A stretch of 64,000 bases of DNA from Chelativorans alearensis (GTDB taxonomy: Bacteria; Pseudomonadota; Alphaproteobacteria; Rhizobiales; Rhizobiaceae), in the NCBI RefSeq assembly GCF_010993735.1, contig NZ_WQNI01000011.1, positions 1 through 64,000 of the forward strand, written 5' to 3'. Position numbers and translations under genes: made by a program. Below are positions 38,991 to 60,789 of the stretch, in pieces (the stretch's first letter is position 1; each line of letters starts with the position of its first letter). The notes beneath the pieces were generated by a model. It was not told where the DNA came from, did no database searches, and was given only the letters and a program-made list of their open reading frames with translations.

Positions 38991-39809
38991 TTACGCGCGC
39001 GCTGACGCCACCGCGCCGAAATGGACATCGCCGGCGGCGATCCGCAGGCGCGAACCGTCGTCCTCGCGGATAACGAACCGGCATGCTTCGTCGATTGTTT
39101 CGAAGATACCCCGCACGACCCGCCCGTCGACGCGCACGGAGACCGCGCCGCCGAGGCCCGCGGCGCGTTTCAGCCACCGCTCGCGGATAGCCGCCAGGCC
39201 ACGCCCGCCGTTCCACAGGCGCATATTGTCGACCCAGGCATCGGAAAGCGCCAGGAATAATTCTCCCGCATCCGTCTTGGCACCGAGCCTCAAAAGCGAT
39301 GTCGCGGGATAGGGAACGTCCTCGGGGTGTGAGACCACGTTGACGCCGATGCCGATCGCCAGCGCCAGGCGGTCGCCTTCGATCATCGAGGACTCCAGGA
39401 GAATCCCCGCCAGCTTCGCTCCGTCCGCCAGAACGTCGTTCGGCCATTTCAGCTCGAAACGGTCGCGGCCGGCGTGTCCACCGTCCACACCGAGGTTCAC
39501 CTTCGCGGTGGGCACCACGGCGGCAAGCGCATCGCCCAGCGCCAGCCCGGCAACGAAGCCGAGGGTGGCGGCGGTTGCCGCGTCCCGCGCTTCGGTGATC
39601 ATGAGGGTGGCGGCGAGGTTTCCCGGCGGCGTCGCCCAGGGGCGCCCTCGCCTGCCGCGGCCGCCTGTCTGCTGCGTTGCGACGACCCAGAGCTTGTTCT
39701 GCTCGCCCTCGCGCGCCCGCTCGAGCGCCAGCGCATTGGTGGAACCGACACTCTCGTGCGCTTCCAGCCGGTAGCCGGCGGCGAGGGCCGAAGGCGCGAG
39801 CGCGAACAT
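38991..39809 (-). CDS. birA: Biotin-[acetyl-CoA carboxylase] ligase
   Basis: BirA attaches biotin to the carrier domain of biotin-dependent carboxylases. The 272-aa product has the biotinyl-AMP loop (QTGGRGRRGRPWATPPGNLAATL), the KWPNDVL motif and a C-terminal domain near residues 225-270. The N-terminal DNA-binding domain of E. coli BirA is missing, so this is a group I ligase without repressor function. It starts 3 nt after the nuoN stop and is probably part of the nuo transcript. Confidence 0.92.
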   Translation of the reverse strand: MFALAPSALAAGYRLEAHESVGSTNALALERAREGEQNKLWVVATQQTGGRGRRGRPWATPPGNLAATLMITEARDAATAATLGFVAGLALGDALAAVVPTAKVNLGVDGGHAGRDRFELKWPNDVLADGAKLAGILLESSMIEGDRLALAIGIGVNVVSHPEDVPYPATSLLRLGAKTDAGELFLALSDAWVDNMRLWNGGRGLAAIRERWLKRAAGLGGAVSVRVDGRVVRGIFETIDEACRFVIREDDGSRLRIAAGDVHFGAVASARA

Positions 39810-57688: not shown

Positions 57689-58066
57689 ATGCTCTCATTG
57701 GCGCTACCCATCCTCCTTCTCACAACCTCGGGCGCAGCGGCGCAGCCCTTCGGCTGCAGCGACGTCATAGGAACCGTCTTCGACGACCGAAACGGCAACG
57801 GCTACCAGGATGCGGGGGAGCAAGGACTGCCGGGCGTGCGGCTTGCCACCGTCAGGGGCTGGCTCGTCACGACGGATGCTCACGGCCGCTTCCACGTCGT
57901 CTGCGCAAACGAAGAGGCAGGGCGCATCGGCTCTGCCTTCATCATGAAGCTCGACGCGCGCACGCTGCCCACGGGCTACCGCCTGACGACGGAGAATCCT
58001 CGCGCGGTGCGGCTGACCGCGGCCAAAACGGCGAAGCTAAACTTCGGCGCCTCGATCGGCCGCTAG
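57689..58066 (+). CDS. Small secreted protein with SdrD_B-like repeat domain
   Basis: This is a 125-aa protein with a signal peptide ([20 protein letters not shown]). One SdrD B-type beta-sandwich repeat follows ([44 protein letters not shown]), whose Asp/Asn-rich loop would bind calcium. Such domains usually serve as spacers in surface proteins; here one stands alone. AAGGAG lies 9 nt before the ATG. It is divergent from the OmpA-family gene across 160 nt. It may originate from a larger surface protein, but no frameshift or remnant is seen. Confidence 0.7.
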
Positions 58067-58119
58067 GTCGGTTCGTCGTTTCATGGAATCGGCGAGCTGG
58101 TTCAACCGGTTGCCTTGTC

Positions 58120-58162
58120 GCAGTTGCGGACGGGAAACCGGTTTCCACTCTCCCGGAATTGC
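58120..58162. repeat. Dispersed palindrome (repeat family D, copy 3, diverged)
   Basis: GCAGTTGC (58120-58127) and GGAATTGC (58155-58162) flank GACGGGAAACCGGTTTCCAC. It is the same design and orientation as at 32610 and 37257, with several changes. It ends 27 nt before the tRNA-Asp remnant. Confidence 0.8.
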
Positions 58163-58189
58163 TCAAAATACATGGCGATGTTTGAAAAA

Positions 58190-58239
58190 TGGCGCGAGTG
58201 ACGGGGCTCGAACCCGCGACCTCCGGCGTGACAGGCCGG
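58190..58239 (-). pseudogene. tRNA-Asp(GTC) 3' fragment: attachment-site remnant at the left end of a mobile element
   Basis: Read on the minus strand, this 50-nt piece is the anticodon arm with CTGTCAC loop (anticodon GTC), the variable loop, the T arm (GGGTTCGAGCCCC), the 3' acceptor strand and CCA of tRNA-Asp. The 5' half (acceptor, D arm) is missing, and the sequence to the right of 58239 is unrelated. Integrases that target a tRNA 3' end rebuild the gene at one junction and leave such a copy at the other. With this orientation the intact tRNA-Asp should lie beyond the right end of the window. Confidence 0.88.
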
Positions 58240-58264
58240 ACAAGTGCCGTTGTCCTTCAATGAA

Positions 58265-58319
58265 GGTTTCAACTTTTTTCCTGCCGTAATGGGCAGCAAG
58301 AAAGCAAGAAGTTGAAACC
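58265..58319. repeat. Inverted repeat inside the att region
   Basis: GGTTTCAACTT (58265-58275) and AAGTTGAAACC (58309-58319) are perfect 11-bp arms. Between them is a smaller stem, CTGCC-gtaat-GGGCAG. It lies 26 nt inside the element from the tRNA fragment. It may be an arm-type integrase or excisionase site or a terminator; the sequence does not decide. Confidence 0.7.
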
Positions 58320-58375
58320 AACAGTCCGCCCCTTGTTGCGGCCTCCGCACCACAAGACTCACAAAGGAAAACACA

Positions 58376-58618
58376 ATGCGAATTCTATCCATCCGACCCT
58401 TGCGGGGGTCGGGCGCGGAAGCGCGTTTTGACATCGAGATAAACGAGCATCTGCGCCTTTTTGGCCTTCTCCTCAAGCGCTCCCGCGACGGGCTGCGGCG
58501 CACGTATGCGCCCAACAGTTGCGGTCGGCATGTCGCGAGCTTCCATCCGGCGCTTGCCTCGCGCATTACGGCGGCGGCTGTAGCCGCCTTGGAGGCTACA
58601 GCCCATGAAGGACGATAA
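58376..58618 (+). CDS. Small hypothetical protein of the mobile element
   Basis: This is an 80-aa protein of unrecognised family. It starts MRILSIRPLRGSGAEARFDIEINEHLRLFGLLLKR, which suggests a small beta-rich fold, and ends in an Ala-rich helix. It overlaps the start of the next gene by 14 nt, and a GGAGG within its last codons serves as the ribosome site of that gene. A partner role for the replication-type protein is a guess from this coupling. Confidence 0.6.
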   Translation: MRILSIRPLRGSGAEARFDIEINEHLRLFGLLLKRSRDGLRRTYAPNSCGRHVASFHPALASRITAAAVAALEATAHEGR

Positions 58619-59993
58619 AGAGCCGCACACGGCCAAGCCAGGCACACTACTGTCGCAATGGTGGACCCTTGGTGCCATCGCACTGGACCGGCGTACCGCG
58701 GGGCGCCATAGTAAGGTGGCCTGGGTAATCATCGACCGCTACATGCAGGCCAAGGGCAACGGCCGCGCCAGCGTTCGCTATATTGAGCGCGCCACCGGAA
58801 TGTCGGGCCGCATCATCATTAAAGCTTGCCGGGAACTTGTGGAGTGGGGCTACGTCAGCCAACGAGTTGGCATCGGCACCCGCCCAACGGAATACATTCC
58901 TAATTGGTCTAGCGTTTCACCCATGTGCAACGCTAAGGCAGATGAACCTAGTGTTGCACCCATGTGCAACGCAAGTGTTTCACCCATGTGCAACGCTAGC
59001 GACGATAGCGCTGCACCCATGTGCAACAAATCCTACTTACTTAAACCGGCTGACAAGCCGGGTTTACAAGAAAGTAGGAATGATCCCGCCGCGCCTTCGG
59101 CGCCGCCCACGGTCGGCCTAGCGGCCACCGCGGCGGAAACGGCGGAAGAGGGTTTTGAAGAGCTTTGGCGAACCTATGGCGTAAGGAGGAAGAAGGCCGA
59201 CGCGCGCGCTGCCTACGACAAGCTCGTGCCGGATGCAGACCAGCACGCCACCATGGTTGCCGCTGCAAAGGCTTGGCGGGAAGCGGCGGGCGACGGCGTC
59301 GAGCGCATGCACCTGCGGCGCTGGATTGAGCAGGAGGAATATGAGTGCGAGCCGCCAACCGCGTTCAAGGCCAAAGACAAGCCGAAGAAGCACGCCGCGA
59401 AGGCGGGCAAGCCGCAGCCATCCGCAGAGCCCTTCCGCGAAATACGCCAGTTGCTGACCATCACCAGTGCTGAAGTCGAGAAGGAAGACGGCTCCACCTG
59501 GCTAAACCTGTATCTTCGTGACGATGAAGAAGGCGAGGAGGACGAAGCGTTCATCTGCCTGGAGTCGCCCAATGAGGACGCACAGTGCAAGGGACAGCGC
59601 AGGCTCAACCGCCTGACCGCTGCGCTGGGCATCACCGACCTCGAAGATAGCGGTCAACTCATTGGCCTCCGCTTCGTCCGCGTGCTGCGCACCAAGTTTG
59701 GTGAGTACGAATATGAGCCTGCGCCCGAGAATGAGTCACTGTCGGAATCCGACACTATGGCCGCGAACGATAACGCATCATGTGATCGGTCACATGATGA
59801 TGCCGCCCGTGCCGGTGACTACCCACCCACCAAGCCGCGTCCGCCCCGGCCGAACTTTTTCGAGGTTATGGCGCGTCATCCCGTTTCCGCCAGCGGTTGG
59901 CAGCGCGATGATGATGATGACGATGAGGAAGCGGAAGCACGCGCGGGCATGTATTTCGGCGCACACGACGATGACGAATCGGAGGCAGCATGA
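58605..59993 (+). CDS. Phage-type replication protein candidate with internal iterons
   Basis: This is a 462-aa protein. The N-terminal helix-turn-helix/winged-helix region (about residues 30-95: KVAWVIIDRYMQAKGNGRASVRYIERATGMSGRIIIKACRELVEWGYV) resembles phage replication initiators of the helix-turn-helix type. Residues 104-141 contain four SVSPMCNA-like repeats, encoded by the DNA iterons described separately. A middle region (EELWRTYGVRRKKADARAAYDKL) resembles segments in other phage replication proteins. The C-terminus is very acidic, with runs of Asp and Glu near residue 440. Function is inferred from layout (initiator with the origin inside its own gene) and is not proven. Start ATG 58605 with GGAGG upstream. 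Confidence 0.6.
   Translation: MKDDKEPHTAKPGTLLSQWWTLGAIALDRRTAGRHSKVAWVIIDRYMQAKGNGRASVRYIERATGMSGRIIIKACRELVEWGYVSQRVGIGTRPTEYIPNWSSVSPMCNAKADEPSVAPMCNASVSPMCNASDDSAAPMCNKSYLLKPADKPGLQESRNDPAAPSAPPTVGLAATAAETAEEGFEELWRTYGVRRKKADARAAYDKLVPDADQHATMVAAAKAWREAAGDGVERMHLRRWIEQEEYECEPPTAFKAKDKPKKHAAKAGKPQPSAEPFREIRQLLTITSAEVEKEDGSTWLNLYLRDDEEGEEDEAFICLESPNEDAQCKGQRRLNRLTAALGITDLEDSGQLIGLRFVRVLRTKFGEYEYEPAPENESLSESDTMAANDNASCDRSHDDAARAGDYPPTKPRPPRPNFFEVMARHPVSASGWQRDDDDDDEEAEARAGMYFGAHDDDESEAA
58914..59027. repeat. Four 18-bp dyad iterons inside the replication-type gene (candidate origin)
   Basis: Copies of GTTGCAC-CCAT-GTGCAAC occur at 58914-58931 (GTTTCAC variant), 58953-58970 (perfect dyad), 58977-58994 (GTTTCAC) and 59010-59027 (GCTGCAC). 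The right half CCATGTGCAAC is invariant. Start-to-start spacing is 39, 24 and 33 bp, always in frame. The pattern matches lambdoid-type origins, where initiator-binding iterons lie in the initiator gene. Confidence 0.8.
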
Positions 59994-60151
59994 GCGTCGC
60001 CGACCGCCTCCACGACATAGCCGACCGCCTAGCGCGGTTGGCGCCATCGCACCGGGATCCATTCCGATTTCACGAAGACAAATCCGAGCTGGTCGCCGAG
60101 CTTCGGTGGCTGGCTGCGAACGACAATCAAAAGCAGGGGGAAGCAGTATGA
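59990..60151 (+). CDS. 53-aa hypothetical protein overlapping its neighbours
   Basis: This short gene starts by an ATGA overlap with the stop of the 58605 gene and ends by an ATGA overlap with the 60148 gene. The product begins MSVADRLHDIADRLARLAPS and continues with charged helices (EDKSELVAELRWLAANDN). A helical regulator or adaptor is possible, but the family is not recognised. The overlaps at both ends argue that it is real and translationally coupled. Confidence 0.6.
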   Translation: MSVADRLHDIADRLARLAPSHRDPFRFHEDKSELVAELRWLAANDNQKQGEAV

Positions 60152-60327
60152 CCACAACCACCGACCGCACCACGAGCACCACTGACACCACCGAGAGCGC
60201 GCGTCCCTACCGCGGCAGGCGGATTACGTGGGAAGAATTCTATGCGCTGCGGCCGGACCTGCGGCCCGCCAATGACAACAGCCATACGCTTGCAGAGACG
60301 GCACGTCAGGCGTCTCCCCGGCAATGA
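60148..60327 (+). CDS. 59-aa hypothetical protein
   Basis: This short protein has a Thr-rich start (MTTTTDRTTSTTDTTESARP) and then RPYRGRRITWEEFYALRPDLRPANDN, a pattern seen in many small alphaproteobacterial phage/element proteins. No function is known. It overlaps the previous gene by 4 nt. The next gene is convergent, 24 nt away. Confidence 0.6.
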   Translation: MTTTTDRTTSTTDTTESARPYRGRRITWEEFYALRPDLRPANDNSHTLAETARQASPRQ

Positions 60328-60351
60328 AACCGGGGGACGGGTCGTGTTTAC

Positions 60352-60789
60352 TCAGCCTCCCGTGGCGGTCGGTTTGGCGTCGACGGCTTCTGTGTCGACG
60401 GCGGATGCTTTAGGCATCGCGCGCTCCGGTAGGCCTTCCATGGCGACAAGCCGGTCGGCGCAGACATCTGCCGCTCCCGATACCTGTTCTTCCTCCTTCA
60501 GACCGGCGAGCGTTATCCAGCCGCCGTCCTCAATGAAGTCGTCTTGTTGATAGCTACTGGCTTCCTTCAGATCGATCAGGTTCCTGGCTGCATTCGGGTT
60601 GGAAATGAAGCTTTCCACGCAGATTGAGGCGACCAGCTGCTCTCGTGCATCCTGCGAAGCCTGTGCAGCCATGGTCGAAGCGGTGCTGCCGGTCACCCAG
60701 CCGCCCCACGTAAAACCAACGATTGCAAGCGCTATGGCGCCGCCTGCCGCGCCATAGATGGCGGGCTTAGTCCATTCAGGGATGTTCAT
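60352..60789 (-). CDS. Conserved single-pass membrane hypothetical protein
   Basis: This is a 145-aa protein with one N-terminal membrane helix (PAIYGAAGGAIALAIVGFTWGGWVTG) followed by a soluble domain with two cysteines (SICVESF and DVCADRL) and RNLIDLKEASSYQQDDFIEDGGW. The family is common in Hyphomicrobiales chromosomes as MNIPEW...GGWVTG hypothetical proteins. Here it lies inside the mobile element, possibly as cargo. The start at 60789 was chosen on the conserved MNIPEW N-terminus; no strong ribosome site is visible. Confidence 0.7.
   Translation of the reverse strand: MNIPEWTKPAIYGAAGGAIALAIVGFTWGGWVTGSTASTMAAQASQDAREQLVASICVESFISNPNAARNLIDLKEASSYQQDDFIEDGGWITLAGLKEEEQVSGAADVCADRLVAMEGLPERAMPKASAVDTEAVDAKPTATGG

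Follow-up and report, generated by a model that had tools for sequence, protein, structure and literature searches.

Why should a single gene carry four nearly identical palindromes within its own coding sequence? The question is raised by an open reading frame (ORF) at 58605-59993 of the first 64,000 nucleotides of contig NZ_WQNI01000011.1 (contig C3; the whole stretch is called the window hereafter), from the 5.7 Mb genome of Chelativorans alearensis (GCF_010993735.1). Our results make it very probable that this ORF provides an integrated, phage-derived element with its replication initiator and that the origin lies within the coding sequence of the initiator itself, as in gene O of phage lambda. 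The repeats, a covarying hairpin and the domain layout of the protein, the last taken from a predicted structural model, were established by computation. The features on which the argument rests are the following:

58605..59993, forward strand: probable replication initiator gene, 462 amino acids (ORF and phrog_270 match)
58911..58934, forward strand: iteron 1, the 24-bp dyad AGCGTTTCACCCATGTGCAACGCT (repeat and dyad searches)
58950..58973, forward strand: iteron 2, which holds a perfect dyad (repeat and dyad searches)
58974..58997, forward strand: iteron 3 (repeat and dyad searches)
59007..59030, forward strand: iteron 4, the least symmetric, with 6/12 pairs (repeat and dyad searches)
58914-58931, 58953-58970, 58977-58994 and 59010-59027: dyad cores of the four iterons (pattern search)
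59031..59080, forward strand: conserved hairpin of about 50 nt, with 20 pairs and a 4-nt loop in the window (folds, covariance model and covariation)

The original prediction, made from the sequence of the window, had listed four copies of the motif GTTGCAC-CCAT-GTGCAAC within 114 bp, and the pattern search confirmed one exact copy and three with a single mismatch in 58914-59027, where 0.05 matches would be expected by chance at up to three mismatches and none of 100 shuffles reached four. The perfect dyad and the invariant right half that it described are also present: the second copy is the exact match, and all the mismatches fall in left halves (GTTTCAC in copies 1 and 3, GCTGCAC in copy 4), the right half GTGCAAC being the same in every copy. 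A 25-nt repeat occurs four times across 58911-59031, with start-to-start spacings of 39, 24 and 33 bp, and since the similarity spans about 25 bp the arms of the dyads can reach 10 bp. When the whole genome was searched at up to one mismatch, GTTNCACNNNNGTGNAAC was found at the four array copies and at two isolated single sites, and no second array of such dyads was found in the 5.7 Mb outside the ORF. All four dyads share one frame of the ORF, as had been predicted, but the claim of a PMCNA peptide in each did not hold for the fourth copy, which reads PMCNK.

Relatives of the window protein were detected by tblastn in 19 of 394 genomes of the host family and by a profile search in 100 of the same 394, many through short stretches alone, while the profile search of the host class gave 18 of 385 genomes, the genome of origin being included in each count. 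The named loci (given here as L and a number) belong to Mesorhizobium, Phyllobacterium, two Bradyrhizobium and an unclassified Rhizobiales. IMG/VR contributed ten records, the protein of two being identical to that of genome loci; a single-protein search of IMG/VR gave no match. For the comparison of dyads, 27 members were used, the window included, after exclusion of L084, L086 and L089, whose proteins are identical to those of L013, L020 and L010, and of L018, which has no N-terminal domain at a contig end. In a view by codon, repeats occupy the corresponding position in the relatives, directly 3' of the winged-helix domain, with other sequences, for example GTTCGG...CCGAAC in the L012 group, GGTAGCG...CGCTACC in L016, GGGGGT...ACCCCC in L014 and GTCC...GGAC in L022 and L087. 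At the offsets found in the window, a dyad score of at least 6/12 was reached at -33 in 18/23 members, at -57 in 20/23 and at -96 in 16/20, against a background of 6.9% of all centres in the same stretches. These counts include the window and leave out L017, L062, L092 and L093. For the last centre we took a position given for each member by an earlier dyad scan; L022 and L085, where it is apparently misplaced, were kept as misses. The comparison offsets -84 and -85 had dyads in 5/23 and 3/23 members and are impure controls, some members having a genuine first spacing of 27 or 28 bp.

Each gene was further compared with 200 synonymous versions of itself recoded at random, a feature being counted as a pass when it was reached by at most 10/200. 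Among 25 members (L062 and L093 were dropped for frame breaks, and L091, with a break 3' of the array, was kept), no recoding attained the direct repeats in 22, and the dyad sums were reached by at most 10/200 in 21. In L082 and L090 iterons 2-4 share a frame that iteron 1 does not; iteron 1 there matches iteron 2 at 21 and 17 of the 24 bases respectively, so that similar DNA is retained while coding for unrelated peptides. Together with the original prediction, a comparison of relatives had been proposed in which peptide repeats kept after loss of the DNA dyads would speak against an origin; the opposite pattern was observed, as position, dyads and largely the spacing are kept while sequence and encoded peptide change. 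The distance between arrays, measured in 5-mers, followed that between winged-helix domains (r 0.71) and not that between C-terminal halves (r 0.10) in 22 members (L017, L062, L091, L092 and L093 left out), and in partial Mantel tests the observed value was reached by 0/2000 permutations for the N-terminal domain and by 453/2000 for the C-terminal half. The distances of the winged-helix half and the C-terminal half are themselves hardly correlated (r 0.096), which suggests that these genes are mosaics. The four dyads are conserved as DNA, not as peptide, and are linked to the winged-helix domain.

Two side observations belong here. The reading frame of L062, L091 and L093 is broken at the array or next to it, where the winged-helix part gives way to the remainder, and the break may reflect a pseudogene, a sequencing error or a translational feature. 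Repeated dyads were also seen by eye past the helix-turn-helix (HTH) part of two more distant HTH initiator-like genes, L023 (GGCCCA..TGGGCC) and L024 (GTGAT..ATCAC), and these sequences suggest that in-gene dyads may extend beyond the initiator family of the window.

Directly 3' of iteron 4 stands a hairpin that formed in all 26 sequences folded (L092, the 27th, was dropped after inspection, none being evident), with 16-25 pairs in 25 of them and 11 in L087, loops of 3-6 nt and, in 25/26, more unpaired bases in the 3' arm than in the 5' arm. Folded as DNA, the window copy had a z of -6.4 against dinucleotide shuffles. By the recoding criterion, 19/25 members pass; the misses are L013, L016, L019, L021, L087 and L092, the last counted as a fail because its hairpin stretch was badly placed. 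Covariation over 14 sequences was 0.244, compared with 0.117 (standard deviation 0.022) in shuffles, none of 500 reaching the observed value, and 9 pairs are changed on both sides; slid controls gave 0.039-0.107. The pairs were counted on the alignment of these 14 made by a covariance model, itself built from 11 sequences, the window among them. This model found the window hairpin at an expect value (E) of 3.6e-14, the window being one of the building sequences, and at E up to 1 it matched 24/49 sources, each solely at the hairpin site, as well as 7/10 viral records at E up to 0.001. It missed eight family loci (L012, L013, L018, L022, L084, L092, L094 and L095), in five of which (L012, L013, L022, L094 and L095) the hairpin is still visible in single folds. 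As to strand preference, G-T and A-C cells stood at 10 to 16. An Rfam scan of 58100-60400 at E up to 1 returned a tRNA remnant and no family for the hairpin, which may serve the origin as a single-strand or cruciform element.

The protein itself points to the same function. Against the PHROG profiles it matches phrog_270, annotated as replication initiation protein, at E 1.1e-15 over residues 29-309, with further matches to phrog_9474 (E 1.2e-5) and, weakly, to the O-like phrog_678 (E 0.0024) and phrog_345 (E 0.037); phrog_270 was matched by 11/12 members of alignment A1. A Pfam scan at E up to 1 gave MarR_2 and HTH_36 alone, both under the cut-off, with no match to the O-family model (Phage_rep_O, the lambda O protein family) and no plasmid Rep family. 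No match at E up to 1e-3 was obtained among 72,556 plasmid records for the window protein, or among 50,697 phage records for the window and L012 proteins; the L020 protein matched three phage records, over residues 186-260 only, and with the N-terminal domain alone the best E was no lower than 0.8. In structure comparison the N-terminal winged-helix fold is one common to Fur, MarR and similar regulators, no replication initiator being named among the matches listed, and a PDB sequence search gave weak regulator matches and nothing else. The remaining parts of the protein are:

58920..59138, forward strand: predicted disordered linker holding the iteron-encoded peptides, residues 106-178 (predicted local distance difference test, pLDDT, <50)
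59139..59372, forward strand: helical domain, residues 179-256, matched by phage primosomal and initiation profiles (phrog_9474, phrog_9327; predicted helices)
59430..59738, forward strand: predicted OB-type domain resembling single-stranded DNA-binding domains, residues about 276-378 (structure comparison)

The helical domain is likely the contact for a helicase or its loader. For the predicted structure of the OB-type domain the best PDB match was PrgE of pCF10, and several viral DUF669 models are among the structure matches of the full model. As the phrog_270 match stops at residue 309, the OB-type C-terminus lies largely outside the known profile. We conclude, from the sequence tests made, that the window initiator probably works like lambda O while standing outside the O protein family. 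The phrog_270 match supports the predicted initiator gene that contains its own origin, as do the dyads, their position and their largely conserved spacing in relatives. In the mechanism that we propose, dimers of the N-terminal winged helix would bind the four 24-bp dyads at 58911-59030, and the resulting nucleoprotein complex would strain and open the less G+C-rich strip downstream. The hairpin at 59031-59080 could then form in the opened strip, as single-stranded or cruciform DNA, while the middle helical domain would bring the helicase or a loader and the C-terminal OB-type domain may hold the opened strand.

Several results weigh against this interpretation. The 40 bp past iteron 4, which overlap the hairpin, contain 55% A+T, compared with 40% in the gene and 77.5% in lambda, and no helicase-loader gene was recognised in the six window ORFs or the ten ORFs scanned in L031, the stretch of contig C3 that holds the element. 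The hairpin of the window is equalled by 7/200 synonymous recodings; the best 50-nt fold of the gene is the hairpin in just 2/23 genes, though it is among the better folds in most, and 242/8268 stretches of that length fold better. RNAalifold predicted no pairs from a plain unguided alignment of the 26 hairpins, so the covariation rests on the model-fitted alignment. L017, near a contig end, has the hairpin and a single dyad of different sequence, perhaps after a deletion between repeats, and L092 has a weak array and no clear hairpin. Finally, because array and N-terminal domain are adjacent, their correlation may be partly due to linkage.

The gene lies in an element of 17.8 kb, bounded by a 53-bp copy of tRNA-Asp and the intact tRNA gene:

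58187..58239, reverse strand: attL-like copy of the 3' part of tRNA-Asp (97% match to C3:75945-76004)
C3 75955-76031 (L031 17955-18031): intact tRNA-Asp, outside the window

Besides the initiator and an integrase, the element encodes a prohead protease, a tape measure protein, a tail fibre and an excisionase-like protein. The models for portal (PF04860), capsid (PF05065) and TerL (PF03354) gave no match in it, other families being beyond their reach, and the element may thus be a prophage in decay or a satellite that depends on a helper; as a carrier of the proposed origin it would be self-replicating. The same three models were applied to nine IMG/VR carriers, whose records may be fragments. 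Four of them (G779, G780, G786 and G787, of 15-20 kb) had no match to any of the three, although one protein of G780 matches phrog_4523, major head and protease; G782 matched the capsid model only, and G781 (15.6 kb) and G783-G785 (35-58 kb) matched all three. The sizes and matches together place the origin module in prophage-sized records as well as in small islands, and the window element and the four 15-20 kb carriers may represent a recurring satellite-like type, not random decay. The size, integrase and initiator of the window element fit a phage-inducible chromosomal island (PICI) or its capsid-forming variant (cf-PICI), although tail genes are present; G781 suits the cf-PICI reading better than the window element, with its tail genes, does. 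The 15.6 kb record IMGVR_UViG_2869256925_000004 (L085/L104) holds integrase, initiator, portal, capsid, HNH, head-tail adaptor, TerL, protease and one tail protein, and resembles a capsid-forming satellite. Just outside the window element, at about 58045-58168, a repeat of some 100 bp has 74-90% identity to at least 38 other places in the genome (40/134 candidates scored).

It is possible, if on the whole doubtful, that this copy is a relic, with the anatomy of the origin correctly read but the element having lost genes that it needs and no longer replicating. Such a state is compatible with the in-gene origin and agrees with the presence of integrase, protease, tape measure and tail fibre where no portal, HK97-type capsid or TerL was matched. 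However, the initiator frame, the array and the hairpin appear intact, and the four other carriers of 15-20 kb, possibly fragments themselves, show no match to the same three models either, which suggests a recurring type of element.

An improbable alternative is that the dyads are operators and nothing more, the winged-helix protein regulating transcription while replication starts elsewhere. Dyads are typical operators, and the N-terminal domain folds like Fur, MarR and similar regulators. The sites stand some 300 bp within the coding sequence, however, and there are four of them, in largely conserved spacing and followed by a conserved hairpin, in a family annotated as initiator whose middle domain matches primosomal profiles. 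We give still less credit to the idea that dyads and long hairpin act in the mRNA, in the control of translation or decay. Both can fold as hairpins and G-U pairs are kept at some positions of the long one, but the array sequence tracks the DNA-binding domain, the fixed spacing of the dyads fits a protein dimer on duplex DNA, and the 10 to 16 count of G-T and A-C cells does not favour the coding strand; the long hairpin alone may act in the mRNA. That the repeat matters as the peptide PMCNA, for instance as a metal- or partner-binding repeat with the DNA dyad as by-product, is scarcely tenable, for while the window copies are in frame and do repeat the peptide, in relatives the peptides differ where the dyads stay, synonymous shuffles lose the repeats, the dyad is out of frame in two relatives and the encoded linker is predicted to be disordered.

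Returning to an origin inside the initiator gene, lambda offers the closest parallel. The lambda palindrome is a recognised part of ori. In the lambda sequence (J02459) four annotated iterons lie at 39034-39118 inside the O coding sequence, and the 40 bp past them, with 77.5% A+T, precede a 10-pair hairpin that includes one G-T pair. In the window the parts are arranged likewise, with four in-gene dyad iterons ahead of a weakly A+T-enriched strip and a hairpin; it differs from lambda in the sequence of sites and protein, in the weaker A+T strip, in the C-terminal OB-type domain and in the position of the hairpin, which adjoins iteron 4 where that of lambda lies some 40 nt off; none of the ORFs scanned in the element was recognised as P-like. 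Published accounts place the inverted-repeat iterons of lambda ori within the initiator gene, ahead of an A+T-rich strip (PMC5043065, PMC7466680), and describe the O protein of lambda and the gp18 proteins of P22 and phage L as distant relatives with different iterons in their own genes, P22 having four repeats of about 20 bp and phage L six of 11 bp (PMC8022706). Related initiators with changing in-gene sites are common to the gp18 proteins and to our family; those phages and hosts are others, repeat number and length vary there whereas position and spacing are largely fixed here, and the text compared does not mention a conserved hairpin (PMC8022706). Iteron plasmid origins of the P1, F and RK2 type likewise combine arrayed initiator sites with an adjacent melting region, but the sites of the window are dyads inside the gene, and neither a Rep family nor a plasmid match was found in the scans described above.

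The original prediction had called this origin previously undescribed. As a class it is known, from lambda, P22 and L (PMC8022706), and the site sequence is its own. As far as we have seen, no account describes a geometry that many relatives largely share, the conserved hairpin or the C-terminal OB-type domain. No description of this initiator family was found in the literature searched, which was available in part and is weak evidence of absence; what was seen of a paper on Sinorhizobium meliloti prophages mentions neither iterons nor a replication origin (PMC12429752).

More tentatively, with somewhat less than even confidence, we propose that these are self-contained, exchangeable origins of Rhizobiales phage elements, in which the DNA-binding domain and the dyads change together while geometry and hairpin stay fixed, the hairpin being a single-strand initiation site held by the single-stranded DNA-binding domain of the initiator. 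If this is true, one protein would do the work of lambda O plus a single-stranded DNA-binding protein (SSB), and the many specificities would keep co-resident elements from cross-initiating. The change of sites has its precedent in lambda, P22 and L; the novelty would lie in the fixed hairpin and in the fused domain. Our findings place a probable lambda-type origin in elements of Rhizobiales, with an initiator unmatched in 50,697 phage records (window and L012 proteins), and offer the conserved hairpin as a concrete candidate part of the origin. With many relatives of largely fixed geometry, how an initiator and the origin inside its gene change specificity together becomes testable in these bacteria.
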